DNA of 55,423 bases from an uncultured Flavobacteriales bacterium. Lineage in GTDB: Bacteria; Bacteroidota; Bacteroidia; Flavobacteriales_D; Parvicellaceae. The position numbers and the translations under genes are program-made. A model generated the notes under the pieces. It made no database searches and had not been told where the DNA came from. It worked only from the letters and a program-made list of their open reading frames with translations. Shown piece after piece: positions 5,363 through 51,469 of this stretch; position 1 is the first letter of the stretch; each line of letters starts with the position of its first letter. The stretch is taken from NCBI GenBank assembly GCA_913030835.1, contig CAJWDP010000019.1, forward strand, positions 1-55,423, read 5' to 3'.

Positions 5363-6634
5363 ATGGATAGATCTATACCTCCTAAGATTTCTGTTGTGTC
5401 ATCGGTTAATGTTCCGGCCCCCAAGAAACGCTTTCTATCCAATGGAATTCCTGTTTTTTCATTCGATCTATCAGATCAGAAAATAATCCGAATCGAAGTG
5501 GTATTTAGATCGGGAACAGCTCACCAGTCTCGGAACCTAGTTGCGGATTTTACGTCCAGAATGATGGCCGAAGGAACATCGTCCAGATCGGGTGTGGAAA
5601 TTGCAAACGAATTTGATTATTACGGATCTTTTTTTACCCATTCTGTTTCAAAAGACTTTACTACTTTTTCACTGTATTGTTTAACCAAATATGCCCGTGA
5701 ATCGATCGACGTATTTTCAGATATACTAAAGAATCCGATTTTTCCGGAAAAAGAATTTGAAACGAAGAAGCGAAATGCTCTTCAGAGCTTTAAAGTAAAT
5801 TCCGATAAGGTCTCTGTCTTGTGCAAAAGGGAATTTGGAAAGAGGCTTTACCAAAACAACCACCCTTATTTTACTGACATTCACGAGGAAAACTTTGATC
5901 TTAATACAAATTTGTTGATCCAACATCAAAAGAATTATCTGAATTTTTCGGATGCTGTTATTTTTCTGTCCGGATATGTGCAAGAGGATCTTATTGAATG
6001 CATGGATGCCAAGTTTGGTAATCTGAACGTAGAGGATATAGAAAAACCGATTGTAAAGCGTGTAATGGCCTCGAAAGGCGGGAGAGCCGGAGTGGAGAAA
6101 TTGGATGCAATCCAGTCGGGTATTCGAATCGGTCGGATTCTTTCTTTGAGAAGATCAGACCCGGATTACGTGCCTTTTGTTGTTTTGAACACCATTTTAG
6201 GGGGGTATTTTGGCTCGCGATTGATGTCAAATATTCGCGAGGAAAAAGGGTATACGTACGGTATCGGATCGGGGTTGATTCGGAACATCGCATCGACGGT
6301 TTTCTTGATTTCTACTGAAGTTAACGCAGAGCATACAGAGAATACCTTGAATGAGGTTGAGAAAGAGTTGCAACGGCTGCAGAAAGAACTGGTATCGGAA
6401 TCGGAGCTAGATAGGGTGAAAAATTTTCTTACCGGCTCGTATCTCAAAAAATCGGATGGTCCATTTAACATTTGTGATCAATTCAAATCCTACTATCTCT
6501 ATGGATTGAATGAATCCTACAATACCACTTATCTTTCAGAATTGCAGGATGTTAGCGCTGAAAAAATACGTTCGATAGCGGTTAAATATTTGAATTTTGA
6601 TGATATGCTTCAGGTTATTGCTGGTAAGTTATAG
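5363..6634 (+). CDS. M16 family peptidase-like, non-catalytic partner subunit
   Basis: A 423-residue M16 homologue that lacks HxxEH at the expected place; the region around residues 70-80 reads ANEFDYYGSFF instead. It retains the C-terminal hallmark NIREEKGYTYGIGSG near residues 290-300, which includes the Arg/Tyr pair that positions substrate in the partner of two-chain M16B enzymes. It is full length and undisturbed, so loss of zinc ligands reflects its role as partner rather than a pseudogene. It probably forms a heterodimer clamp with the product of the preceding gene; the peptide substrate is unknown. Confidence 0.9.
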   Translation: MDRSIPPKISVVSSVNVPAPKKRFLSNGIPVFSFDLSDQKIIRIEVVFRSGTAHQSRNLVADFTSRMMAEGTSSRSGVEIANEFDYYGSFFTHSVSKDFTTFSLYCLTKYARESIDVFSDILKNPIFPEKEFETKKRNALQSFKVNSDKVSVLCKREFGKRLYQNNHPYFTDIHEENFDLNTNLLIQHQKNYLNFSDAVIFLSGYVQEDLIECMDAKFGNLNVEDIEKPIVKRVMASKGGRAGVEKLDAIQSGIRIGRILSLRRSDPDYVPFVVLNTILGGYFGSRLMSNIREEKGYTYGIGSGLIRNIASTVFLISTEVNAEHTENTLNEVEKELQRLQKELVSESELDRVKNFLTGSYLKKSDGPFNICDQFKSYYLYGLNESYNTTYLSELQDVSAEKIRSIAVKYLNFDDMLQVIAGKL

Positions 6635-6695: not shown

Positions 6696-9600
6696 TTGGT
6701 TAAGAAACAGCACCACAGACAATTGAAATCAGCAATTTTGAAAACGGCGGTTTGTATCTTGCTTACGACATTTGTGATCAATGCTCGTGCAGATCATCTC
6801 ATCGGCGGGAATATTACTTGGACCTGCTTGGGTGGTGGAGATTATGTGTTTCAGCTTGTTCTGATAATGGATTGCAATGGGGTCATAACTCCTTCTCCCA
6901 CAGAGGAAATTCAGGTTTGGAACCATCCTACAGTAACCAATATAACTGTTAATCATGTGCTGGATTATGATGCTTCTCCGGGCTGCATAGCTTCCGGAGG
7001 AACCAATCCAATTACATGTGCTGCCGGTGGAGTCGGAAGTTATACGGTGTCTAAATTCGTTTCGAATCCCGTAACTCTTGGTGGAATTCCTCCTGCTGAT
7101 GGTTGGATTTTTACGTGGAACGATTTCTCTAGATCTGCAGGTATAGACAATCTTAGTGCACCACAAACGTATGGGATGACCCTCATTTCTAAAATGTTCA
7201 ATAATTCGGGATTAAACGGATCGCCATGTTATGATTCGTCTCCGCAGATTTCGGATGATGTAGTTGCGTTATTTTGCGAAGGTCAAAACCCTTATACCAT
7301 ACTAAGCTCTGACCCGGATGGAGATTCGCTGGTTTATTCATTTACTGACCCACTTACCTATCTCATAGCCGTTCAACCTAATTTTGTATTGCCCGCTTCA
7401 ATACCTTATGCTGCCGGTTATTCCAATGCGAGCCAGCTGCCAAATACCAGTCATAATGCTTCCAATATTCCGGTAAATCTCAATGCCGAAACGGGACAGC
7501 TGGATTTCACTTCATTTACGCAAGGAACATTTGTTGTAGGTGTCCGGATAGAGTCGTTTCGCTGTGGGACAAAAATATCAGAGATTAATTTTGAACTGCC
7601 GTTTACCATTGTAAACTGCGGGTTTTCAAACGATGCTCCTGATATTACTCCACCAATTGCAAACCCCGGTGGATTGCCGGTATATCGCGATACTGTTTTT
7701 GCGGGTGAGTTGGTCACCTTTGATGTAATTGCCAATGATATTGAGTTTTTACAAGATGGAATAACACCGCAACAGAATACACTAACGGCTTTTGGTTCCC
7801 AGTTTGGAGCGAATTTCACCGATCCTAGCACAGGTTGTTCAGAACCGCCATGTGCAGTGGTAACAGGTGGCGTTCCCGCCGTTGGAGTGCAAGGCGTTGG
7901 AGCAACGTTTTCCTGGCAAACGGATTGTAGTCATGTTAAAAGTTCAAACTGTTCAGATTTCACCACTTACAATTTTCATTTCATGGTACGGGATGATGTG
8001 TGCCCGATTCCTAAAACTTCTGCAGCTACAGTGCAAATCACGGTTCAGAATCTACCGGTCCTTAGTTCACCGGAAGTGCGATGTGCAAATGTTCAGGCAG
8101 ACGGAAGTGTAGATGTGCACTGGGAACCGATCGAGGACACAACAGATTCATTTTTAGAGTACAGAATATATTCCAGCGTTGGAGGACCATTTTTACTTGA
8201 AGGAGTTGAAACGAATGTGGCGAGCAGCTCATTTACTGATTTGACTGCTGACGCCCAGAATGGAACTGTATCGTACTTGGTTCGGACCGTGTCCGGATGC
8301 AATTCAGGTGAAGCGCTTCCTTACGATACATTGCAAACTATACTACTTAACGTGGCTAATCCAGGAAACGGAACGGCCCTTTTGACATGGAACTCCTTGC
8401 TTGATCCGGTGCTCAGCAGCACGGGTGAATACTATTATATCTACAGAGAATATCCTCTTGGAGTGTGGACTTTATTGGATTCTGTGCCTACAACCAGTGC
8501 CAATTTATATCAGGATACGATTTCCGTTTGCAATGACTCGCTTACCTACTTTGTTCAGCTGCGCGATTCTCTATTTTGTTCCAGTAATTCTTCATTCGAC
8601 GGTGGAATTTTCCAAGATCAAATTCCCCCAACAATACCCGTTATACAGGCGGTGTCTGTTGATACTTCCACCAACCAGGCGGTTATAACCTGGAATATAA
8701 ATCCTCACGAAGACACGTATGGATACATTGTTTTCCAACAAGATAATTTCGGGAACTGGTTCATACTGGATACAGTTTGGGGGCATACCAACAACACCTA
8801 TTACAACATATTGTCAAATGCAGGTTCTACTTCTGAAACGTATGGAATTGCTGCTTTTGATAGCTGCTATAGTGGAAGCCCACCAACCCCAAACACGTCA
8901 CCAATTGGTATTGAACACAGAAGCATACACCTAAACGGTTCATTGGACATTTGTGATAGGAGCTATTCTTTGGAATGGAATGAATATATCAATTGGGCTG
9001 ATCAGGTTGATTATTATGAATTGTATGTTTCGGAGGATGGAAACGCACCCAATTTGCTGGTTAGTATTCCAAGTGGAACGTTCAATTACGTTCATAGCGA
9101 TTTAACATCGAACGCGGAATATTGCTATGTAATAAAGGCGGTTAGTACAGGAGGAAATTCAGCGCTTTCAAATAAGCTCTGCCAGGTTATCTTTCAACCT
9201 TCGGCCCCAGATTATTTGTATATACAAGCTGCTTCGGTTGAAATTCAAAATTCCGTGGAATTGAGAGTGTTATTGGATCCAGGAGCTTCTGTTAATGGAC
9301 TGGAAATAGAGCGAAGCTCATTTGCGAGCGGGCCATGGAACTACATAGGAGGGATTATTCCTTCAAGTAATCCTGAGATTTTCAGAGACTACTCTGCAGC
9401 TACTTCACAATCTTCATATTATTACAGAATCAATGCGATTGATAGTTGTGACCGTTTGGCTTTAAGCAGTCAAGTTTCGCGAACCATTTACCTTACCGTA
9501 ACACCTGACCAGAGTAGATTGGTCAATCTTCTGCAATGGAATGATTACGAGGGATACGATGGTGCCGTTCTAGGGTATAACATTTATCGTTCTGTGAACG

Positions 9601-10067
9601 AAGTGTTTGATCCGATACCAATTGCTACGATAGGAATTGGGCCTAGGTTCTATGAAGATAACGTGGAAAGTTTTGTGGGAAGTACTGCAAATGGAAAGTT
9701 TTGTTACTATGTAGAAGCCATAGAGAATTTAAATTCTTACGGGTTGGAAGAACGTGCCAAATCCAACATTGCTTGTGGGACAGAGGAGCCTTTACTTTTT
9801 GTGCCCAATGCATTTATTGTAGGTGGTGTAAATGCTGAATTTGGGCCGGAAGTCAGCTATATAGATTTTGATCAGTATGAATTCAATGTGTACAACCGTT
9901 GGGGTAAACTCGTTTTTCAGACGAATGATGCAGGTGAAAAGTGGGATGGAAAATTCAATGGGGATCTGTGCAGGGAAGATGTATATGTGTATATCCTCAC
10001 TTTTAGAAATGGCGACGGAGCCACTCGGGTGCAAAAAGGGCATGTCACACTTTTGAAGTCGGAATAA
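6696..10067 (+). CDS. Giant secreted protein with gliding-motility-type (type B) T9SS C-terminal domain
   Basis: A protein of about 1123 residues. The N-terminus is a signal peptide (hydrophobic core in ILKTAVCILLTTFVINARA). The body has a Cys-containing N-terminal region (about 30-330) and then several repeating beta-sandwich segments of fibronectin-III or Ig-like character, recognisable by recurring VTWN/YRIYSSV/YYYRINAID patterns. The last 90 residues (FVPNAFIVGG, then YEFNVYNRWGKLVFQT, WDGKFNG and a final GHVTLLK) are the CHU_C domain that directs export and surface attachment through the type IX system. The start is TTG at 6696, or TTG at 6723, which gives a tidier signal peptide; no ATG is available. 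It probably acts as a surface adhesin; no enzymatic motif was seen. Confidence 0.86.
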   Translation: MVKKQHHRQLKSAILKTAVCILLTTFVINARADHLIGGNITWTCLGGGDYVFQLVLIMDCNGVITPSPTEEIQVWNHPTVTNITVNHVLDYDASPGCIASGGTNPITCAAGGVGSYTVSKFVSNPVTLGGIPPADGWIFTWNDFSRSAGIDNLSAPQTYGMTLISKMFNNSGLNGSPCYDSSPQISDDVVALFCEGQNPYTILSSDPDGDSLVYSFTDPLTYLIAVQPNFVLPASIPYAAGYSNASQLPNTSHNASNIPVNLNAETGQLDFTSFTQGTFVVGVRIESFRCGTKISEINFELPFTIVNCGFSNDAPDITPPIANPGGLPVYRDTVFAGELVTFDVIANDIEFLQDGITPQQNTLTAFGSQFGANFTDPSTGCSEPPCAVVTGGVPAVGVQGVGATFSWQTDCSHVKSSNCSDFTTYNFHFMVRDDVCPIPKTSAATVQITVQNLPVLSSPEVRCANVQADGSVDVHWEPIEDTTDSFLEYRIYSSVGGPFLLEGVETNVASSSFTDLTADAQNGTVSYLVRTVSGCNSGEALPYDTLQTILLNVANPGNGTALLTWNSLLDPVLSSTGEYYYIYREYPLGVWTLLDSVPTTSANLYQDTISVCNDSLTYFVQLRDSLFCSSNSSFDGGIFQDQIPPTIPVIQAVSVDTSTNQAVITWNINPHEDTYGYIVFQQDNFGNWFILDTVWGHTNNTYYNILSNAGSTSETYGIAAFDSCYSGSPPTPNTSPIGIEHRSIHLNGSLDICDRSYSLEWNEYINWADQVDYYELYVSEDGNAPNLLVSIPSGTFNYVHSDLTSNAEYCYVIKAVSTGGNSALSNKLCQVIFQPSAPDYLYIQAASVEIQNSVELRVLLDPGASVNGLEIERSSFASGPWNYIGGIIPSSNPEIFRDYSAATSQSSYYYRINAIDSCDRLALSSQVSRTIYLTVTPDQSRLVNLLQWNDYEGYDGAVLGYNIYRSVNEVFDPIPIATIGIGPRFYEDNVESFVGSTANGKFCYYVEAIENLNSYGLEERAKSNIACGTEEPLLFVPNAFIVGGVNAEFGPEVSYIDFDQYEFNVYNRWGKLVFQTNDAGEKWDGKFNGDLCREDVYVYILTFRNGDGATRVQKGHVTLLKSE

Positions 10068-40754: not shown

Positions 40755-41786
40755 TTAAATGGGCATTCTTGCTCTGGGAACACAATCAATAGAAGCAAAT
40801 TCGTTGGCTAAAAATTTATAGTGAGCAGCCATTGAAATCATTGCAGCGTTATCCGTACAGTATTCGAAGTCCGGGATAAATACGGACCACCCTTTTTCTT
40901 CACTCATCTGATGCAGTGCATGACGCAGTCCGGAATTCGCAGATACACCGCCTGCTATAGCTACTTGGTTTATTTTATAATCCTTGACGGCCTTTTTCAA
41001 TTTACTCAAGAGCACTTTGATGATGTGATTTTGCCAAGAAGCGCAAATGTCCGGCAAGTTTTTGGAAACGAATTCAGGGTCTTTTGAGGTTTCCTTTTGG
41101 ATAAAGTAAAGAAATTGGGTTTTTAGCCCTGAAAAACTGTAATTGTAACCTTGTACTGAAGGATGCGAAAACTCAAAGCGGTCCGGGTCGCCTGTCTTTG
41201 CATATTTGTCGATCATTGGTCCTCCCGGATAGGGTAGTCCTAGCACTTTTGCGGATTTATCGAAAGCTTCGCCTGCAGCATCGTCAATTGTTTCGCCGAT
41301 CACTTCCATGTCAAGATGATCACGAACTAAAACCAATTGTGTGTGTCCACCGGACACCGTAAGACAAATGAATGGAAATTTTGGTGACTTTTTCTGTTCC
41401 CCAGGTCGTTCGATAAAATGAGCAAGAACATGAGCGATCATATGGTTTACCTCAACAAGAGGTATGTCCAAAGACATCGCAAGACCTTTTGCAAAAGAAA
41501 CTCCAACAAGCAAGGATCCAAGAAGACCGGGGCCACGGGTAAAGCCAATTGCAGTTAGTTCTTCTGGCCGAATTTGAGCATCCTGTAGAGCCGAGTGCAC
41601 CACAGGAATAATATTCTGTTGGTGAGCACGTGAAGCTAGCTCGGGAACTACGCCACCATACTGTTCATGAATCAACTGACTAGTTACAACATTGGATCTA
41701 ATTTTGCCGTTCTTTATAACAGCCGCAGAGGTATCGTCACAAGACGATTCAATACCGAGAATGATTATATCTTTGTTTTGGCTCAA
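40755..41786 (-). CDS. tsaD: tRNA N6-threonylcarbamoyladenosine synthase subunit TsaD
   Basis: A 343-residue ASKHA-fold protein that transfers the threonylcarbamoyl group to A37 of ANN-decoding tRNAs, with TsaB and TsaE. Signatures: GIESSCDDTSAA at residues 11-22, the metal-binding NHMIAHVLAHF near 115, TVSGGHTQLVLV, YPGGPMIDKYA and VAIAGGVSANSGLR. The start is TTG at 41786: an in-frame stop lies 3 codons upstream (41796-41798) and no ATG is available before the conserved motif. Its 5' end faces tamB, with a perfect -7 box inside the tamB frame. Confidence 0.96.
   Translation of the reverse strand: MSQNKDIIILGIESSCDDTSAAVIKNGKIRSNVVTSQLIHEQYGGVVPELASRAHQQNIIPVVHSALQDAQIRPEELTAIGFTRGPGLLGSLLVGVSFAKGLAMSLDIPLVEVNHMIAHVLAHFIERPGEQKKSPKFPFICLTVSGGHTQLVLVRDHLDMEVIGETIDDAAGEAFDKSAKVLGLPYPGGPMIDKYAKTGDPDRFEFSHPSVQGYNYSFSGLKTQFLYFIQKETSKDPEFVSKNLPDICASWQNHIIKVLLSKLKKAVKDYKINQVAIAGGVSANSGLRHALHQMSEEKGWSVFIPDFEYCTDNAAMISMAAHYKFLANEFASIDCVPRARMPI
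41768..41775 (+). promoter_or_regulatory. tamB promoter -7 box, inside tsaD
   Basis: TATCTTTG, a full match to TAnnTTTG on the plus strand, within the first codons of tsaD. Transcription would start near 41781, 19 bases before the GTG at 41800. Confidence 0.55.
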
Positions 41787-41799
41787 GCGTAAAAATCAG

Positions 41800-44700
41800 G
41801 TGGTCAAAGGTATCAAAAAACACTGGAAAATAGTTCGACTTCTCATTAGTCTGGTACTTGAATGCCTCGTGCTTTTCATCTTTCTTTTTGCATATGGCAT
41901 TCAGACAAGCTATGTCCAAACCAAAGCCGCTCAAGTATTGGTTTCATATATGTCAAATGAGTTGAATACACATGGAAGTATCGGCTATCTTGAAGTGAAA
42001 TGGCCCAACAAACTAGTCATACATGATTTTTATCTGGAAGATCAATTTGGGGATAGTCTTGCCTTCTTTGGAGAACTTGAAGCTAACATTTCAGACTACG
42101 ACCTAAATGAACGTAGGTTAAAGATAAATTCCATTGTTTTGAATGACGCGCTGGTATCCTTGCATAAGAATGAAGGAGAGCAAGAATTTAATTTGGCTTT
42201 TATAGGGAACTATTTTTCCTCTTCAGATTCTACCGGAAGCAAGGATTTCGATATAGCAATCAATAAGGTAAGTATTCGAAATTCTGAATTTAGATTTTAT
42301 GATTCTAATAATGATGTCGTGCCATATGGGGTCGATTATTCTCATTTAAAACTCAAACGGATTAACCTTGAATTGGCCAATTTTAATAGTGGAGCAGACG
42401 GGATAATGGCGTCTATTGATCAGCTTTCTTTTTCAGAAAGGTCGGGTTTTGAATTGGATTCTCTATCTACAGCCGTTCTTTTTTCAGACCGGGCGATCTT
42501 GCTTGATACATTTCGTTTAGCTTCCCCAAATACCAGAATGGTTGCGGACGAATTAGCCCTCAGGTACGATAGCCTTAGCGATTTGAATCAATTCGCTGAG
42601 AAAGTAAATATATCTGCAAAGATTCAAAATAGTACCCTGGGCACTCAGGATTTGAGCTATTTTGCTCCCTTGTACAAGGACCAAAAAGACTCCGTACACT
42701 TCTCCTTAAATGCCAGTGGTAGATTGGCCAATTTTACAGTGAACGACTTTCAGCTTCAATTTGGAGAAGTCTCTAAAGTAAAAGGGAAGGGTTCTATAGT
42801 TGGATTACCCAATGCGTCTCTGGCGCACTTTGATGTTCAATTGTCGGAATTAAGCACCACCACTACAGATGTTAAAAATTTACCATTTCCTTCCGGATAT
42901 AAGGATGTGCTGCAACTGCCACAGCAAATTGAATCATTGGAATACCTCAAAGGCACGGCTTGGTTTAAAGGTACTTTGGATGATTTTGCAGCTGAGGCAA
43001 ACGTTTTTTCTGAGATTGGCGGGCTTGGTGGATCTGTTCAAATGCACTATGATTCAATTCAAGGCAAAGCGGTATACAGGGGAATTGTCAACATGAACAA
43101 TTTCGATGTGGGAGCTATAGCCGGAGTCCCATCTGTTGGGAGAGTAACAACCAAGTTGAACTTAAATGCAAATGGAAAGGATGCTTTTGATCTGCTTTCA
43201 CTAAAATCGGAAGTCGATGCGCAGATCGATCGATTTGATTTTATGGGATATTCTTATAGTAACATTCTGATTGAAGGTCTTGTAAGTGAAAACAAATTTG
43301 ATGGGATCTTAACGGTCGATGACGAACATCTGGCACTTGATTTTGAAGGATTGGTTGATTTTACTACATCCATTCCTGAATATAACTTCACTGCAGAAAT
43401 TCAAAAAGCTCATCTTTATGATCTGAATCTGGAGAAATCAAACGAAACACAGATCATTTGCTCAACCGTAGCTGTAGATGGTTCTGGTTCAAATGCGGAC
43501 AATTTTAAAGGAGAGATCGTTGCCAGAGACTTGTCTTATTATTTGAATGGTCAGGATTACTTTTTTGATTCGATTTATTTGGTTTCTACTCTTGATTCTG
43601 CGAGCCATGCATTATCCGTGTACAGCAACTTTTTGGACATGTCTATTGACGGAAGCTTCAGTATTCAGGATCTTCCAGCAGCTTTTCACACATTGGCCGG
43701 GGAAATATTACCCTCGGTCTTTCAGCCTTCAGATGAAATAGCACTGGAAGAAGAGGATTTTTCATTTTTCGTAGATGTGAAAGACCTATCACTGATTACA
43801 TCCCTGTTCGTGCCGGATATACTTGTGGCTCCCAATACTCAGCTAAACGGAACTTATGAAACCAGAAGTCAAGATCTTAGTTTGAATGTAAATTCAGATT
43901 GGATACACTACAAGAACTTTAAATTAAATAAAGTTCATATGGAAACCGATAAATTCTCTGGACTTTATGAATTTTCAATAACGTCGAAGCAAGCGGATAT
44001 AAATGACAGTGTCCATCTAGACAATCTTCGTTTAGCAGCTACTTTATTTTCAGATAACATCAGTGCAGGTTTGTCGTGGTATGCTGATGACAGATCGAAC
44101 TCTGGTAATATAGATTGGGATGGATATTGGTTGGCAAAAGATCAATTTACAATGAGCTTGAATCCTTCTATTATAAATATTGAAGATGAGGTATGGAATA
44201 TCTACGATAGAGGTGAAATTACACTTGATTCTACCTCCATCAAGGTCGCAAATATCAGAGCTGTGAATGGAGATCAAATTATTGATGTGAATGGAGTAAT
44301 TGCAGAAGACCCGATGAAGACATTGGAATACACCTTAAGTCAATTTGAATTGTCGAACCTAAATGCTTTGGTAACCGGCAACACAGTTTTGCTGGACGGA
44401 CAGATTTCGGCAAATGGTAAACTTCGCGATTTATATGGCCATCCTGTGTACCAAACAGAATTTGACATCAATGAATGTAAATTGAATGGTGAGCTGCTTG
44501 GAGATGTTTGGGGTCTTGTAAAACCGCTTTGGAATGAAACAAATTTTGTCGATGAGGTTACTTCCGGGACCCGTGAGGAAAAAATAATAGCATTTGATGT
44601 GACGGGGAATATCGTAAAAGAAGGAGGATATCAGGTAGATTATGCGGGTAAATACTTTTTGGACGGCAGAAAAGAACCATTGGATTTTGTGTTTAACATG

Positions 44701-46368
44701 AACAATATGAATATGGATGTAATCAACGGGTTGGTTCCTGAAGGAGTATCTGATATAGCGGGTCGAATTGATGGTAATGTTGCTATGACAGGTAGTCCTG
44801 AACGTGTATTGTTCGATGGCTATCTCCTGTTTAATGAGGCAGCTGCTCACATTGATCTGCTGAATACAGATTATACATTTTCAGGTCGGGTTAATATTGA
44901 AAACGATGGATTTTATATGACTCCCGGGTTTAAAGTACTCGACAAATATGGAGCGGCGGCAACGGTATGGGATGCTTCATTTTTGCACATCAACTTTACG
45001 GATTATGCTTATAACTTTCAGATGGAAATGGATGAACCGTTTTTGGTTATGAACACCGATAAGACCATGAGCTCCCTCTATTATGGTGATGCATTTTTAA
45101 CTGGAGATGTTGCAATCGCATACGACAAATTTAATGAGCTGGAAATCGAGGTGTCCGCAAGGTCGGAAAAAGGCACGAATCTGGTCTTACCGCTGGATGG
45201 TGCCGACGAGGTGGTTCTGCCGGATTTTATTACCTGTGTCGATCGAAGTAATCCATTGAAAGTCGAGGACACAGAAATGGATTTAAGTGGTGTAAAGATG
45301 AAATTCAATATGAATGTAACTCCGGATGCCCAAATCAGCTTGATCTTCGATGAGGTGGTGGGTGATGTCATGAAAGGAAACGGAACGGGGGATATAACAC
45401 TAGAGATTGATGAATACGGTGAATTCAGCATGCGCGGACTTTATGAAGTCAATAAGGGAGATTACCTGTTTACCATGTTCGATTTTATCAATAAGCCGTT
45501 TACCGTTAGAAAAGGAGGTACGATTAGCTGGTACGGAAATCCTTACAATGCGGATATTAACTTGGTCGCGGTCTATGAGACCAAAGCATCACTCTATGAC
45601 ATAATGCCGGAAGGAGAAAGAGAAGAGTATAAAGGGAACACCGAGGTAAACTGTTTGATGAAATTGACGGAAAACCTATTCAGTCCGGAATTAGAATTTG
45701 ATATAGAGCTCCCGAAATCGGATGATAAGGCAAGAGCAGTTCTTGAAAATACGATCAGTTCGGATGAAGAATTGAATAAACAGGTGTTCTCGTTAATGGT
45801 TCTGAACAAATTTCTTCCCAGAACCAATGCAATATCTTCGGCGAGTGGCAGTGCATTAGGAGCTGGTGTGGGGGCTACAAGCTCTGATCTGATTAGCAGT
45901 CAAATTGGTAATTGGTTAAATGCTTTATCGGATGATATTGAGATTGGTGTAAATGCAAAACTTGGCAATCAGATTGGAGAAGACGAGATAGCCGTAGCGA
46001 TGTCTAAAGCATTCTTAAATGATCGGTTGGAAATCTCGGGTAATTTTGGCTATAGTAGTACGAATGCAACGACGTCAGACGAACAAAACACCAGATTGAT
46101 CGGAGATGTCAACGTTCAATACAAGCTGAATGAAGAGGGTAACGTAAGAATCAGGGCTTTCAATGAGTCGAACGACTACGACCCAATGCAGACGACCCAA
46201 AACTCGACTCAGGGATTTGGAATTTATTACAAAGAGAGTTTTAACAACTGGTGGGAGCTGCGCCAGAAAATCGCAAATATTTTTAGACCGTCACGAAATG
46301 ATGTGTTGCATTATCGGGGAGTTGGCCGGAGAAAAGACGAGGATTACATTAAAGGTAATCCATTCTGA
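41800..46368 (+). CDS. TamB-like translocation/assembly protein (DUF490)
   Basis: About 1522 residues, an AsmA/TamB-type bridge between inner and outer membranes, thought to move lipids or help barrel protein insertion. After a short basic start there is one N-terminal helix (IVRLLISLVLECLVLFIFLF), then a long repeat of beta strands (residues 60-1250). The conserved DUF490 end follows: GDITLEIDEYGEFSMRGLYEV, YLFTMFDFINKPF, GGTISWYGNPYNADINLVA. The frame is open back to 41692, but ATG 41761 would overlap tsaD; the GTG at 41800 follows a perfect -7 box and gives the usual N-terminus. Its 3' end overlaps hutI by 25 bases. Confidence 0.88.
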   Translation: MVKGIKKHWKIVRLLISLVLECLVLFIFLFAYGIQTSYVQTKAAQVLVSYMSNELNTHGSIGYLEVKWPNKLVIHDFYLEDQFGDSLAFFGELEANISDYDLNERRLKINSIVLNDALVSLHKNEGEQEFNLAFIGNYFSSSDSTGSKDFDIAINKVSIRNSEFRFYDSNNDVVPYGVDYSHLKLKRINLELANFNSGADGIMASIDQLSFSERSGFELDSLSTAVLFSDRAILLDTFRLASPNTRMVADELALRYDSLSDLNQFAEKVNISAKIQNSTLGTQDLSYFAPLYKDQKDSVHFSLNASGRLANFTVNDFQLQFGEVSKVKGKGSIVGLPNASLAHFDVQLSELSTTTTDVKNLPFPSGYKDVLQLPQQIESLEYLKGTAWFKGTLDDFAAEANVFSEIGGLGGSVQMHYDSIQGKAVYRGIVNMNNFDVGAIAGVPSVGRVTTKLNLNANGKDAFDLLSLKSEVDAQIDRFDFMGYSYSNILIEGLVSENKFDGILTVDDEHLALDFEGLVDFTTSIPEYNFTAEIQKAHLYDLNLEKSNETQIICSTVAVDGSGSNADNFKGEIVARDLSYYLNGQDYFFDSIYLVSTLDSASHALSVYSNFLDMSIDGSFSIQDLPAAFHTLAGEILPSVFQPSDEIALEEEDFSFFVDVKDLSLITSLFVPDILVAPNTQLNGTYETRSQDLSLNVNSDWIHYKNFKLNKVHMETDKFSGLYEFSITSKQADINDSVHLDNLRLAATLFSDNISAGLSWYADDRSNSGNIDWDGYWLAKDQFTMSLNPSIINIEDEVWNIYDRGEITLDSTSIKVANIRAVNGDQIIDVNGVIAEDPMKTLEYTLSQFELSNLNALVTGNTVLLDGQISANGKLRDLYGHPVYQTEFDINECKLNGELLGDVWGLVKPLWNETNFVDEVTSGTREEKIIAFDVTGNIVKEGGYQVDYAGKYFLDGRKEPLDFVFNMNNMNMDVINGLVPEGVSDIAGRIDGNVAMTGSPERVLFDGYLLFNEAAAHIDLLNTDYTFSGRVNIENDGFYMTPGFKVLDKYGAAATVWDASFLHINFTDYAYNFQMEMDEPFLVMNTDKTMSSLYYGDAFLTGDVAIAYDKFNELEIEVSARSEKGTNLVLPLDGADEVVLPDFITCVDRSNPLKVEDTEMDLSGVKMKFNMNVTPDAQISLIFDEVVGDVMKGNGTGDITLEIDEYGEFSMRGLYEVNKGDYLFTMFDFINKPFTVRKGGTISWYGNPYNADINLVAVYETKASLYDIMPEGEREEYKGNTEVNCLMKLTENLFSPELEFDIELPKSDDKARAVLENTISSDEELNKQVFSLMVLNKFLPRTNAISSASGSALGAGVGATSSDLISSQIGNWLNALSDDIEIGVNAKLGNQIGEDEIAVAMSKAFLNDRLEISGNFGYSSTNATTSDEQNTRLIGDVNVQYKLNEEGNVRIRAFNESNDYDPMQTTQNSTQGFGIYYKESFNNWWELRQKIANIFRPSRNDVLHYRGVGRRKDEDYIKGNPF
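41805..41812 (-). promoter_or_regulatory. tsaD promoter -7 box, inside tamB
   Basis: TACCTTTG, a full match to TAnnTTTG on the minus strand, 18 bases before the tsaD TTG. It lies within the first codons of tamB. Confidence 0.55.
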
Positions 46369-47612: not shown

Positions 47613-47877
47613 GACGTCACTTCCATAATGTAGTACTCGAAGTTATGTTTTTCTTTTGTCTATGGAAACGAGAAATAGAATAATTCCAATCTGGGAAAAA
47701 TTGATTTGATTTCCGAAAGGACTAGGTATTGGGCATTCTCTTGATTTCTTTGGTCGTATTTTTTAAAATTCAATTTTACGAGTTCAGAATAGGTATATTT
47801 AAAGTAAAAGAAATGTTACGAAGTGAAGTATGAACCTTTTTTTTACAAACGTGTACATATGATTCGATGATAGAATA

Positions 47878-49008
47878 ATGAAGAATTTTAGCTTACATAG
47901 TATCCTGATCGTATTGCTCTTTTTAGTTGCAATTTCCGGGAATTCGCAATCAAAGGTGAAGAATAAGAACGCGGAATCTCTTGCTCCAAAGTTAAATGAT
48001 GCAAAAATCAGCACTTTGAATTCAGTCGAGGAGCGGGATGAAGAAAACCGGGGGTTGTATTATGAAAATCAATATGTAAAGGAAAGATCAAAAAGAATTG
48101 ATATAAACACAAAGCAATTGGGCGAGAAAGACCAACGTGAATTGGACAAGATCGTAAAGACTTTGGAAGTAGAAGCGCCGAATTCAGCTGGGTATTACTA
48201 CGTTTCCTATCTGAATGCAAATCCTAATTCAGTAAACATTGAAAATCTAGATCGCGCATTTGAATTAACAAGTGATAAAACTTCGTTGTACGATGATTAT
48301 ATCGGTTATTACGAATTGACTCAAAATGCTGACAAGAAAAAAGAATTTTGCGAAAAACTGTATAAATCCAATGTAATACCCTCCGGAGTAATGGAGTACA
48401 ATTACAATGTTTTGATGTCGGTCGAAAAAGGTGGAATCTTGTTCGTGAATGGAGCCGACGATACGTACCCGATATGGGTGTATCAAAACACATTGAACGT
48501 AAGAAAAGATGTCACCATTTTAAATACAGATCTATTGGGCGTTGATTCATATCGAGCAAAAAAATTAAGAGATATAGGTGTTGGGATAAATTTGGATTAC
48601 AACGCCGATAGACTAAAATTCATAATATCTGTGGCAAAGGAAAATCCGGATAAGCCGATTTATTTTGCACTGACTTTTTCAAAATCTGTACTAAACGGCT
48701 TGAAGGACAACCTATATCTGACAGGATTGGCCTTAAAATACAGTCCTAATAAAATGGATAATCTGCCTATTCTTAAGAAAAACTGGGAAGAAAAGTTCAA
48801 AACAAAAACGCTTGAAAAATCTCAAGAAAATGGCACGGTGAAGAATTTGAACAGAAATTACATTCTACCCATGTTTCAACTGTCAGAACTTTACAAAATG
48901 GAAGGAGATGAGAGCGAATCAAAAAAGCTGAAGAAGACAATATTGAAGCTGGCAAAGGAGGGAGGAAAAGAGTCGAAAGTCATTAAATACATGCAAGAAC
49001 GGGAATAG
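47878..49008 (+). CDS. Exported protein resembling the C-terminal soluble part of DUF2723/TMEM260 proteins
   Basis: A 376-residue protein with a signal peptide (residues 1-24, core IVLLFLVAISG). A charged helical stretch (25-100) precedes a repeat-like helical region, then GGILFVNGADDTYPIWVYQ (185-203), PIYFALTFS (260-268) and LKDNLYLTGLALKYSP (275-290). These three segments match, as I recall them, the soluble C-terminal domain of DUF2723 membrane proteins (NGDNDTFPLWY..., PIYFA.T, L.GL.Y...P), here without the membrane helices. It ends 14 bases before an ECF sigma factor gene and is likely cotranscribed with it. The role is unknown; envelope sensing or a glycan-related function is inference. 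Confidence 0.65.
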   Translation: MKNFSLHSILIVLLFLVAISGNSQSKVKNKNAESLAPKLNDAKISTLNSVEERDEENRGLYYENQYVKERSKRIDINTKQLGEKDQRELDKIVKTLEVEAPNSAGYYYVSYLNANPNSVNIENLDRAFELTSDKTSLYDDYIGYYELTQNADKKKEFCEKLYKSNVIPSGVMEYNYNVLMSVEKGGILFVNGADDTYPIWVYQNTLNVRKDVTILNTDLLGVDSYRAKKLRDIGVGINLDYNADRLKFIISVAKENPDKPIYFALTFSKSVLNGLKDNLYLTGLALKYSPNKMDNLPILKKNWEEKFKTKTLEKSQENGTVKNLNRNYILPMFQLSELYKMEGDESESKKLKKTILKLAKEGGKESKVIKYMQERE

Positions 49009-49022
49009 CTGAACTGTCCCAC

Positions 49023-49667
49023 ATGAGTACGACGCGAGAAGAATATACCGATTTAGAGGATGAACTGCTAATGGAAAAAGTAGCGGGTGGGGACAGTGCG
49101 GCTTTCAGTGAACTCTACGACAGATATTCAACAGCATTGATTAACTATTTTTTTAGAATGCTATGGAGAGACAGAGAAAAAGCAGAGGACTTCATGCAGG
49201 AGCTATTTACCAAACTGATACACAAGCCACACCTGTATAATCCGGAAAGAAAATTTAAGACATGGATGTATAGTATTGCGAACAATATGTGTAAAAATGA
49301 ATATAGAAGGATGGAGGTTCGGCGAAATACGAGTAATGGATTGGGGGACAGGGAAGATATAAAAGACAGGAATGCCTTGTCCGATAAACTAGTGGATCGC
49401 GAATTGTTTAATGAAAAGCTGGATGAGGAGCTGTTGGAGTTAAGTGACAATCACCGAACGGTATTTGAGCTCAGGTACAGGGAAGATCTCAGCATCAAAG
49501 AAATTGCAGAAATATTGGAATGCTCCGAGGGAACGATTAAATCCAGACTATTCTATACGATTAAAAAACTATCTGAAAAATTGCAGCATTACAATCCAAA
49601 ATTAGCAGTCTTAATCATTGTGTCAATAGCAAGCGCTTTGACCGAATTCTTTAAATCACTACCATGA
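49023..49667 (+). CDS. ECF-type RNA polymerase sigma factor with hydrophobic C-terminal tail
   Basis: A 214-residue sigma-70 family protein. Region 2 spans residues 28-97 (FSELYDRYSTALINYFFRML, AEDFMQELFTKLIHK, KFKTWMYSIANNMCKNEYRR). Region 4 spans about 138-188 (NHRTVFELRYREDLSIKEIA, CSEGTIKSRLFYTIKKL, a helix-turn-helix for the -35 element). Unusually, residues 194-210 (LAVLIIVSIASALTEFF) are a hydrophobic helix long enough to touch or enter the membrane. Its TGA overlaps the ATG of the next gene (ATGA), so sigma and anti-sigma-like protein are coupled. Confidence 0.92.
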   Translation: MSTTREEYTDLEDELLMEKVAGGDSAAFSELYDRYSTALINYFFRMLWRDREKAEDFMQELFTKLIHKPHLYNPERKFKTWMYSIANNMCKNEYRRMEVRRNTSNGLGDREDIKDRNALSDKLVDRELFNEKLDEELLELSDNHRTVFELRYREDLSIKEIAEILECSEGTIKSRLFYTIKKLSEKLQHYNPKLAVLIIVSIASALTEFFKSLP

Positions 49668-50689
49668 GTTCAGAATTAAAATACCAACCGGAAGATATTG
49701 AGTTCATATTACTGAATAAAGACTTCAATGAACTGAATAAAGAAGAAAGAAGATTTGTTGACGAGTTTATCAAGTCCGAAGAGGAATATTTACTGATGCG
49801 AAAAACGCTGCTGAATATTTCTAAATCGGTTCATCCAGAAGTTGAAATTGTACCGCCGTACTCGATTAAAGACCGTCTAATGGCTGAATTTGATGAAAAA
49901 GAAAGGGTCGGTATAGTTGCATGGTGGAACCGTATGGTGAAGGCATTGTTCCCGGAAAATAGATCGATTCTGGCAAAGCCGGGAATTCAGATGAGTCTGG
50001 TGGTGTGTTCTGTGTTGGTCCTAGTGATTATGATTCCATGGTCGGATCTGGGTACAAAGAAAGAGAATGTGGCGTATAATGAGAACGCAGTGAAAAATGA
50101 ACAGCGTGAAGAACTACAATCAGAAACAAATGTCATTCGCTCGGCAGAGACGGAAGTTGAGAAAGAAATAGCCGGGGAGGATGCCGAAACCAACAACACG
50201 ATTGCTTCGGATGAATTCATGGAAGTACCTGAAGCTTCCTTTTTAGCTGATGAGGTGGTTTCAGCTGATTTTAAAGCTATGGTCAGGGATTCAGTTGGGA
50301 CAATGTCTAATGCTTTGGGAGACATTGATCAGTATGCTTTTTTAAGTGAAAAGCCAGCATCCATTGAGGACATTTCAACGGCTGAATACAAAGATTATGA
50401 AGAAACAGACTCAACAGCAATTTCTCTGCAAGATGACAAGCTAGATTTTGATGAGGTAGCAGTTTCTGGCAATAGCCATATGGTCAATTCTGCTGAAGGA
50501 ACTGCAGAAGCATACAATTATACCTCAGGTGCTGAGTTGCTTAAAGAAACGGTTGTAGTTAGTTCAGAAAGCGTTTCAAAACGAAGTAATTTACGCGCAA
50601 AAAAGGAAACCTCTCTATCTCCAATGGCCACAAGTAGGTCGTTGTCAGATCAACAAGATCTGATTGACTTGTTATTTACCGCAATGTAG
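49664..50689 (+). CDS. Single-pass anti-sigma-factor-like membrane protein
   Basis: A 341-residue protein. Residues 1-105 are cytosolic and helical (DFNELNKEERRFVDEFIKSE, LLMRKTLLNI), similar in layout to anti-sigma domains. One transmembrane helix is at 109-125 (QMSLVVCSVLVLVIMIP). About 215 residues follow on the periplasmic side, acidic and low in complexity, ending LSDQQDLIDLLFTAM. No zinc-binding HxxxCxxC is seen, so it is not a ZAS-type factor. Coupling by 4-base overlap to an ECF sigma gene is the main support for the call. Confidence 0.72.
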   Translation: MSSELKYQPEDIEFILLNKDFNELNKEERRFVDEFIKSEEEYLLMRKTLLNISKSVHPEVEIVPPYSIKDRLMAEFDEKERVGIVAWWNRMVKALFPENRSILAKPGIQMSLVVCSVLVLVIMIPWSDLGTKKENVAYNENAVKNEQREELQSETNVIRSAETEVEKEIAGEDAETNNTIASDEFMEVPEASFLADEVVSADFKAMVRDSVGTMSNALGDIDQYAFLSEKPASIEDISTAEYKDYEETDSTAISLQDDKLDFDEVAVSGNSHMVNSAEGTAEAYNYTSGAELLKETVVVSSESVSKRSNLRAKKETSLSPMATSRSLSDQQDLIDLLFTAM

Positions 50690-50740
50690 TCTTGTCGAAA
50701 TCAGACAAAAATCATAGGAGCTTTTCCCTATATTTAAATA

Positions 50741-51469
50741 ATGTTTGAGAAGTGGAACGTAAGAACTGAATTAACCCGAGAACGAGAGATTCTGGCCGAA
50801 AACTACTGTCCAGTAAGTATAGCGAAAGCAATTTACATCGAACAAGAGTTTGAAGATTGCAGAGTGGTGGAGGCCTTGGGTAGTTCCGGTTGCGGTGTTC
50901 AGGAAATCGATGAACGCTGTTTGGATCAGAATCGGATCTATACACTTAACGAGATCAAAAAAATAGCAATCGATTATAGATTAAGGTTTCTGCCTTCAAA
51001 GTATTTTATTGGGGATATTCCTTACGATGCCATCATGGAGATAAAAAAGCTTCGTAAAGCTACGGGAAGCGAAGTCAACAAATTTAGAGTATTGGCGCCA
51101 TCAAAAAGGTTTGAATTAGAAGATGAAAATGCCGATCCATTGTTATTCACACCTTTGTCCAATGGGAAGTATTACCTCATTCATCAGTGGGGAAACGATT
51201 TAGCATGGTATAAGAAAATTATGGCTATACCGATGAGGTCCTATCGCCATATGGTTGGTTTTGCATGTTTTTGTGCATTTGTTTTTGCATTGATTGTTCC
51301 AGCGGATATCATCATGAATTCGAGTCGGGTAGAATACGATTACTTTGACTTTTACCGCATCGCATTTTTCTTTTTCATGTGTATCTTATTTTGCGCTGTT
51401 TCTGTATTCTGTTCGTTCGCCTTTAGCCTTTTTCCAAGTGATTATATTTGGAAGAAGAAAACCTTTTAG
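50741..51469 (+). CDS. Uncharacterised Cys-rich protein with two C-terminal membrane helices
   Basis: A 242-residue protein I do not recognise. The N-terminal 170 residues are soluble and have four Cys within 38 residues (23, 40, 51, 60), which could bind metal or form disulfides. The C-terminus has two hydrophobic helices, about 174-195 (FACFCAFVFALIVPADIIM) and 208-232 (YRIAFFFFMCILFCAVSVFC), then a short basic tail. With no signal peptide, the soluble part is probably cytosolic. It lies 51 bases after the anti-sigma-like gene on the same strand; short inverted repeats (TTGTC/GACAA at 50692-50708) occupy the gap. Confidence 0.6.
   Translation: MFEKWNVRTELTREREILAENYCPVSIAKAIYIEQEFEDCRVVEALGSSGCGVQEIDERCLDQNRIYTLNEIKKIAIDYRLRFLPSKYFIGDIPYDAIMEIKKLRKATGSEVNKFRVLAPSKRFELEDENADPLLFTPLSNGKYYLIHQWGNDLAWYKKIMAIPMRSYRHMVGFACFCAFVFALIVPADIIMNSSRVEYDYFDFYRIAFFFFMCILFCAVSVFCSFAFSLFPSDYIWKKKTF

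Follow-up and report, generated by a model that had tools for sequence, protein, structure and literature searches.

Which genes of a tightly spaced locus around an extracytoplasmic function (ECF) sigma factor work together, and what could such a group sense? The question is raised by four plus-strand genes in a 55,423-nucleotide stretch of DNA (hereafter, the window) from an uncultured Flavobacteriales bacterium, which is contig C19 of a 3.14 Mb draft genome. The initial annotation, made from the sequence, read them as a four-gene circuit that senses the state of the envelope, with the exported protein encoded by gene 1 as either sensor input or output. We find that genes 1 to 3 are a real conserved unit, and we consider it probable that they form an autoregulated module of an ECF sigma factor, a membrane anti-sigma factor and an exported partner, in which a tether ending in a short conserved hook would serve as a docking switch. 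The locus is laid out as follows.

47831..47856, plus strand: predicted ECF promoter TGAACCTTTTTTTTACAAACGTGTAC (TGAAC-16 bp-TGTAC), ending 21 bp before the ATG of gene 1
47878..49008, plus strand: gene 1, an exported protein of 376 aa with a signal-like stretch, a TPR-like half and a TMEM260-C motif
49023..49667, plus strand: gene 2, an ECF sigma factor of 214 aa with sigma2 and sigma4 regions and a hydrophobic C-terminal tail
49664..50689, plus strand: gene 3, an anti-sigma-like protein of 341 aa, overlapping gene 2 by the 4 bases ATGA
50741..51469, plus strand: gene 4, a protein of 242 aa with two hydrophobic stretches and 9 Cys

Conservation of genes 1 to 3 and the status of gene 4

The coordinates of the four open reading frames (ORFs), with gaps of 14, −4 and 51 bases, match those first annotated exactly, and their conservation divides them into two parts. 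In the window's own family, the anti-sigma gene was found in 19 of 39 genomes, this one included; in the 18 other neighbourhoods, genes 1, 2 and 3 occur together wherever the contig permits, with flanks that differ between genera and with a frame-broken gene 3 in one genome (G036). Beyond the family, the neighbourhood check gave the same order of the three genes in 20 of 20 loci from 19 further genera, which were hand-picked for diversity from the anti-sigma matches when the gene-1 search was already known. Among the matches listed, gene 1 lies upstream on the same strand in 76 of 87 anti-sigma rows, at a distance of 591–697 bp in 75 and of 960 bp in one; a gap of 591–697 bp leaves room for the ECF gene. 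This sample comprised 112 listed anti-sigma rows and 149 listed gene-1 rows, 87 of the former in genomes with both, and left out weaker anti-sigma rows and the second gene pieces in G001 and G011. In the 11 non-adjacent rows among these matches, gene 1 is on another contig or far away, some of these being contig ends and others involving another gene-1 copy. Complete triples were obtained in 74 of 79 loci, although this is not an unbiased rate, as 40 of the loci were chosen for known adjacency; the incomplete ones are due to contig ends (G038, G027), to a broken gene 1 (G011), to a broken gene 3 (G036) and to an ECF ORF below threshold (G097). Across the order, the anti-sigma profile matches 224 of 399 genomes (1e-3) and the gene-1 profile 217 (1e-20), with both in 193, only one in 31 and 24, respectively, and neither in 151; these are raw counts, uncorrected for phylogeny, in which type B copies (described below) can count in either profile.

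Gene 4 behaves differently. It follows on the same strand after 51 bases and adjoins the operon in four genomes, three of the genus plus G009, which could suggest a four-gene unit with gene 4 as a membrane component of the circuit. Its distribution contradicts this. Of 299 genomes searched in the order, 50 have gene 4, among them g3, g5 and g7 genomes with neither an anti-sigma match nor a gene-1 match at 1e-20 (the searches there did not include gene 2). Gene 4 was not found in the 20 diversity-picked triple loci, and no ECF match was flagged beside it in the seven other gene 4 loci that were read. The protein does have the two membrane helices and nine Cys that led to its description as Cys-rich, but the Cys are not conserved, none being among the invariant columns of a four-row alignment. 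We thus rejected the four-gene unit, which we regard as very improbable: gene 4 is a neighbour in the genus and G009 and not a component of the circuit, and the four-gene locus first proposed is reduced to genes 1 to 3. A lack of co-occurrence in related genomes had been named in the initial annotation as a refuting result; genes 1 to 3 stand up to this check, and gene 4 fails it.

Promoter, paralogous operon and predicted regulon

A promoter-like element is conserved upstream of gene 1. TGAAC N15–18 GTA occurs in 71 of 74 gene-1 upstream regions, compared with a mean of 2.15 (maximum 4) in 20 rounds of dinucleotide shuffling, and the exact form TGAAC N15–17 TGTAC occurs in 49 of 74, against a shuffle mean of 0.10. 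The spacer between TGAAC and GTA is 17 in 70 of the 71 sites, and GTA is preceded by T in 64 of them, by G in 7 and never by A. Gene starts were called mechanically, so some promoter offsets are positive. ECF sigma factors recognise their own promoters through an AAC-containing −35 element, and the predicted TGAAC-N16-TGTAC has such a −35. The conservation of this promoter before gene 1 argues strongly for autoregulation, in which the operon is probably transcribed by the sigma factor that it encodes.

A second version of the operon, type B, was read in nine genomes and encodes a gene-1 relative, an ECF and a shorter anti-sigma-like protein (187–208 aa). All nine upstream regions contain TGAAC-N15-GAGTA (shuffle mean 0.0), with the spacing of type A and an A before GTA. 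The two forms do not mix: at this spacing, none of the 74 type A regions has GAGTA, and none of the 9 type B regions has the TGTAC form. In a tree of 31 type A, 9 type B and 3 outgroup ECFs, the types form two groups, with support of 94/97 for A and 92/58 for B. From these patterns, we infer that the two types may be insulated from each other through the −10 element. The C-termini of the type B anti-sigma-like proteins differ from those of type A, yet they share an acidic stretch, led by a Ser and running into hydrophobic residues, which is suggestive only. The window's own genome has no type B gene-1 relative that the gene-1 profile could find. As separate observations on type B loci, three of five gene-1 proteins scanned (L094, L095, L099) have a C-terminal FGE-sulfatase domain (PF03781), and one locus (G134) has an extra ORF of 314 aa between gene 1 and the ECF gene.

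Further candidate targets were sought as exact TGAAC-N16-TGTAC matches, with the reversed pattern as control and with positions outside ORFs of at least 100 aa counted as intergenic. In the window's genome, 5 of the 12 exact sites are intergenic, each close to a start, and they precede the following genes.

This operon: site at 47831..47856, plus strand
An RnfD/NQR2-like membrane gene, then a DUF2330 gene
A gene for a protein of 302 aa whose N-terminus is signal-like
A gene for a protein of 140 aa whose N-terminus resembles that of a lipoprotein
A CarboxypepD_reg protein with a type IX secretion system (T9SS) tail

Two genomes of the same genus have 13 sites against 8 reversed ones, 6 of the 13 being intergenic and near a start. 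The sites that recur are those of the operon (G038), the RnfD-like gene (G037 and G038) and the T9SS-tail protein (G038); the operon site of G037, at 6389–6414, lies inside a mechanically called gene 1 ORF. The RnfD/NQR2-like and DUF2330 pair stands behind TGAAC-N16-TGTAC in three genomes of the genus (L198:4367-6648, with equivalents in L202 and L203), its families having been scanned in L198. Four genomes of another family have 38 sites against 11 reversed ones. Of the 30 that were read, 19 lie outside ORFs near starts, compared with 0 of the 11 reversed sites; for 13 of these 19 the downstream protein was scanned with Pfam, and 3 precede gene 1. Four of the targets there have orthologues in the window's genome: gene 1, an RnfD-like gene at 46% identity, the 302-aa protein at 56%, and a protein whose Cys-containing N-terminus is similar (26% over 175 positions and 39% over 61). 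The targets there also include MuiA/DUF4139, VWA plus CarboxypepD_reg, TonB_C, DUF4846 and WG-repeat proteins. Four predicted targets (L199, L204, L221, L228) have a common Cys-containing N-terminal stretch, with a PC-E-W motif first and a later C--C, and C-terminal parts that differ (a T9SS tail or TonB_C). Taken as exact-pattern matches, the sites predict a small regulon that points to the envelope and the cell surface.

Flavobacterial ECF promoters have been described in Flavobacterium psychrophilum for SM6 (PMC9723704), which likewise has one ECF/anti-sigma pair among its targets; as published, those promoters differ from the ones described here, being characterised by a CGT −10 box and associated with T9SS components.

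The three proteins and their relatives

The identity of gene 2 as an ECF sigma factor is borne out by Pfam matches above cut-off to Sigma70_r2 (1.9e-12) and r4_2 (6.3e-14), and also to r4, with no region 3 listed, and by 115.4 bits against TIGR02937, whose cut-off is 42.9. It had been called unusual, an impression that its hydrophobic C-terminal tail may explain. Gene 2 shares this tail with the rows of its own family, those of f13 and most of those of f9, but it is absent from f7, f8, f10, f11 and some f9 rows, and with several families lacking it we dropped a C-terminal membrane tail as a defining feature of these ECFs.

Gene 3 can be divided into four parts.

49664..49978, plus strand: residues 1–105, putative cytoplasmic anti-sigma domain, with model helices at 11–18, 26–35, 39–55 and 68–75
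49979..50035, plus strand: residues 106–124, single transmembrane helix (Kyte-Doolittle 19-mer of 2.37)
50036..50656, plus strand: residues 125–331, long variable tether, presumed periplasmic, with low pLDDT (predicted local distance difference test)
50657..50686, plus strand: residues 332–341, DLIDLLFTAM, conserved C-terminal hook seen in column entropies

In a two-row AlphaFold model of gene 3 (mean pLDDT 43.8), residues 11–50 form a block with pLDDT of 79–88, with lower values after it, and L24, P64, K69, L72 and F76 are invariant in 17 family rows. The protein was annotated as single-pass, and in fact one hydrophobic 19-mer (Kyte-Doolittle of at least 1.6) is found in the window protein, starting at 106/107, and in 77 of 77 homologues. 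The helix starts at residue 96–115 in 76 of 79 homologues; the three exceptions have it at 93, at 94 and at 26, the last of these being a frame-broken row. The tether after it is 106–260 residues long in the homologues, and 217 residues follow the helix in the window protein. Conservation in the last 90 residues is limited to about the final 18. In 77 right-aligned sequences, from which the frame-broken G004 and G036 were excluded, the column entropies are 0.82–2.08 bits at positions −9 to −2, compared with 3.69 (standard deviation 0.10) at −90 to −21, and a Ser stands at −18 in 51 of 77. The hook is of the DLIDLLYTAM type in the window's family and of the DLLDLLTATF type in much of f8.

The initial annotation had set this locus apart from well-known sigma systems, and this stands: HxxxCxxC, the motif of zinc anti-sigma factors, occurs in 0 of 77 homologues, gene 3 has no FecR match, and the window genes flanking the operon include no TonB receptor that would indicate SusC/D. 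In Pfam and NCBIfam scans, genes 1, 3 and 4 matched no family above cut-off, and a fold look-up with gene 3 returned nothing above Z 3.5 and listed no anti-sigma factor. The class I anti-sigma domain (ASDI) consists of a three-helix bundle and a fourth helix that binds sigma2 and sigma4, and we take the P-x4-K-x2-L-x3-F pattern of gene 3 to resemble its helix 4. The predicted N-terminal domain may be ASDI-like, being helical in the model, of the right size and placed before the transmembrane helix, but it differs in being recognised by neither Pfam nor NCBIfam; according to a survey, ASDI is found beside only 6% of Bacteroidetes ECFs (PMC7406223). The gene 3 family may therefore be missing from such surveys.

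In architecture, gene 3 appears closest to the Dma anti-sigmas that accompany ECF21 in Bacteroides. These proteins (PMC13088901) have an N-terminal sigma-binding domain, one transmembrane helix, a long disordered tether that extends into the envelope and an adjoining sigma gene, as gene 3 does, with the disorder of its tether judged from low pLDDT and variability and its sigma binding putative. The difference lies at the end of the tether, where Dma has a C-terminal outer-membrane beta-barrel. The tether of gene 3 stops instead in a conserved peptide of 10 residues, and its operon also encodes an exported protein, that of gene 1. For Dma2, the same source reports its own operon among the most induced genes upon anti-sigma loss.

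The protein of gene 1 has an N-terminal hydrophobic signal-like stretch and no lipobox that we could see; among 74 homologues, 72 are strongly hydrophobic close to the N-terminus and 6 carry a lipobox-like motif. A low-confidence model (two-row alignment, mean pLDDT 54.5) places a helical repeat at about residues 47–170, and the best look-alikes in the PDB are TPR proteins, although weak ones (Z about 7–8). The description of gene 1 as DUF2723-C-terminal-like was well founded, for its profile matches long ORFs over about 60 columns (near 154–213), mostly of 900–1450 aa and with E-values mostly of 1e-22 to 1e-12 and one of 2.6e-7. The single such ORF that was scanned is TMEM260-like (PF11028, 2.1e-74), with the stretch in common with gene 1 calculated to lie near residues 763–814, outside its PF11028 stretch (34–208). 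Gene 1 has the motif ILF-NG-DDTYP-W, of about 60 residues, from the C-terminal half of TMEM260-like (DUF2723) O-mannosyltransferases but not their PF11028 membrane transferase part, and a catalytic role cannot be inferred. In the window's own genome, the gene-1 profile found gene 1 only, with no full-length TMEM260-like relative in the assembly, and one PF11028 match fell below threshold (22.7 bits, cut-off 24.2). Outside the order, an ECF is next door in 6 of 12 gene-1 relatives that were read, and an ECF-like ORF lies nearby in a seventh.

As for the surroundings, a divergent amidohydrolase gene, presumably HutI-like, lies upstream of the operon and a gene for an HSP90-type chaperone downstream; the flanking window genes comprise amidohydrolase, TamB, HSP90 and histidine kinase genes. 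The TamB-like ORF (1558 aa; PF04357, 9.3e-45) is at 41692–46368 on the plus strand, two genes upstream, and the operon of G037 (L039) has the same neighbours. Elsewhere in the window, an ORF of 1123 aa (6696–10067, plus strand) has fn3 and CHU_C type IX secretion signal domains. In one g8 genome (L029:11049-13838), the anti-sigma gene is followed by a gene for a hybrid histidine kinase with TPR, HisKA, receiver and Hpt domains; in another (L035:2-2038), an ORF at a contig edge that matches a window histidine kinase takes this place.

Proposed docking mechanism, alternatives and significance

The operon, its promoter, the regulon members, the tether and the hook come from sequence comparison, and sequestration, docking and release would be the steps that connect them. 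The N-terminal domain of gene 3 would hold the sigma factor at the membrane, while the hook at the end of the tether would dock on a periplasmic partner. The likeliest candidate for this partner is the gene-1 protein, as a sensor or a latch. A change in the state of the envelope would alter the docking, and the anti-sigma factor would let go or be cut. The freed sigma factor would then raise its own operon in a positive feedback that supplies more latch and more anti-sigma factor, and it would also raise the envelope regulon. The idea of an envelope stress circuit is supported in part, by an ECF/anti-sigma pair with a constant exported companion and by a predicted regulon of envelope and secreted proteins, without gene 4 as a member. 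The choice between sensor input and output has narrowed: standing behind the predicted promoter, gene 1 is an output, and a role in signalling is also favoured because it is kept with the ECF/anti-sigma pair in two paralogous operons.

Several observations weigh against this docking module. The enrichment of sites is modest in the window's genome (12 exact against 7 reversed) and absent in G037 alone (5 against 5), and the hook is variable in its final position (2.61 bits at −1). Profile searches of solved structures gave no relative for gene 3 and one marginal TPR match (E 0.95) for gene 1. Gene 3 is frame-broken within the tether in G004 (L025), where the longest ORF lacks the hook and genes 1 and 2 are intact, and gene 1 is broken in G011 (L028), where the ECF and anti-sigma genes are intact. 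Moreover, 55 of the 399 genomes match only one of the two profiles, and no ECF was recognised near the remaining gene-1 relatives outside the order among the 12 read.

The main alternative is that gene 1 is merely the first output of the sigma factor and that the hook docks on another protein, which we consider unlikely. The partner could be an outer-membrane protein, as with the Dma tether, or, as in DegS-type control, a periplasmic protease specific for C-termini. Gene 1 does stand directly behind the promoter, and the hook is at the C-terminus in all clades, with F or Y mostly last in f8, like a ligand with a free C-terminus. However, several clades end in R, P, D, E, K or N, a poor fit to a strict PDZ ligand, and this variability weakens such a reading of the hook. 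Dma anti-sigmas also have a disordered tether, which ends in a beta-barrel (PMC13088901); against this, gene 1 accompanies the ECF and anti-sigma genes in the same order in both paralogous types, and we noticed no second exported protein as a constant neighbour in the gene lists, although no systematic search for one was made.

The docking module itself could take a more specific form, in which gene 1 is an RseB-like shield that sits on the tether close to the hook and blocks the first protease cut until it has a stress ligand bound. In the RpoE-RseA-RseB envelope stress system, an ECF sigma factor is controlled by a membrane anti-sigma factor without a zinc motif and by a co-encoded exported partner. 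The same set is present here: as with RseA and RseB, one operon encodes both the membrane anti-sigma factor and an exported protein distinct from it, and the release step would be regulated proteolysis. In contrast to that system, the exported partner is encoded ahead of the sigma factor and is TPR/TMEM260-C-like, the long variable tether has a conserved tip, and no sequence relation was seen: gene 1 has no Pfam match and no visible relation to RseB, the C-terminal half of its model is too weak for fold assignment, and no protease was identified, none having been sought. We regard the shield as a doubtful but serious candidate; being a special case of the docking module, its probability is contained in that of the module and does not add to it. 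Quite unlikely, in our view, is a still bolder version in which gene 1, as a relative of the C-terminal half of a pan-Bacteroidota family of O-mannosyltransferase-like proteins, physically holds the hook, either in the periplasm or at the outer membrane. The circuit would then read periplasmic protein glycosylation or surface-protein assembly, as a "split Dma" that has its anchor and its tether on different proteins and whose two paralogous copies are kept apart by their −10 elements.

We found no description of the module of genes 1 to 3 in the open-licence literature, where the work that came up concerned PorA/SigP, Bacteroides or more general matters, and this does not establish its absence from print; what appears new here is the conserved promoter, the tether hook, the type B paralogue with its GAGTA −10 and the predicted regulon. 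Little is known about how Bacteroidota sense envelope stress. The ECF/anti-sigma family described here is widespread in one order; it comes with a predicted promoter and a small predicted regulon, has an exported partner, and ends in 10 defined residues that would dock. Promoter, hook and partner can each be tested by single deletions, and the A/B pair offers a natural case of two ECF circuits with a common −35 and different −10 elements.

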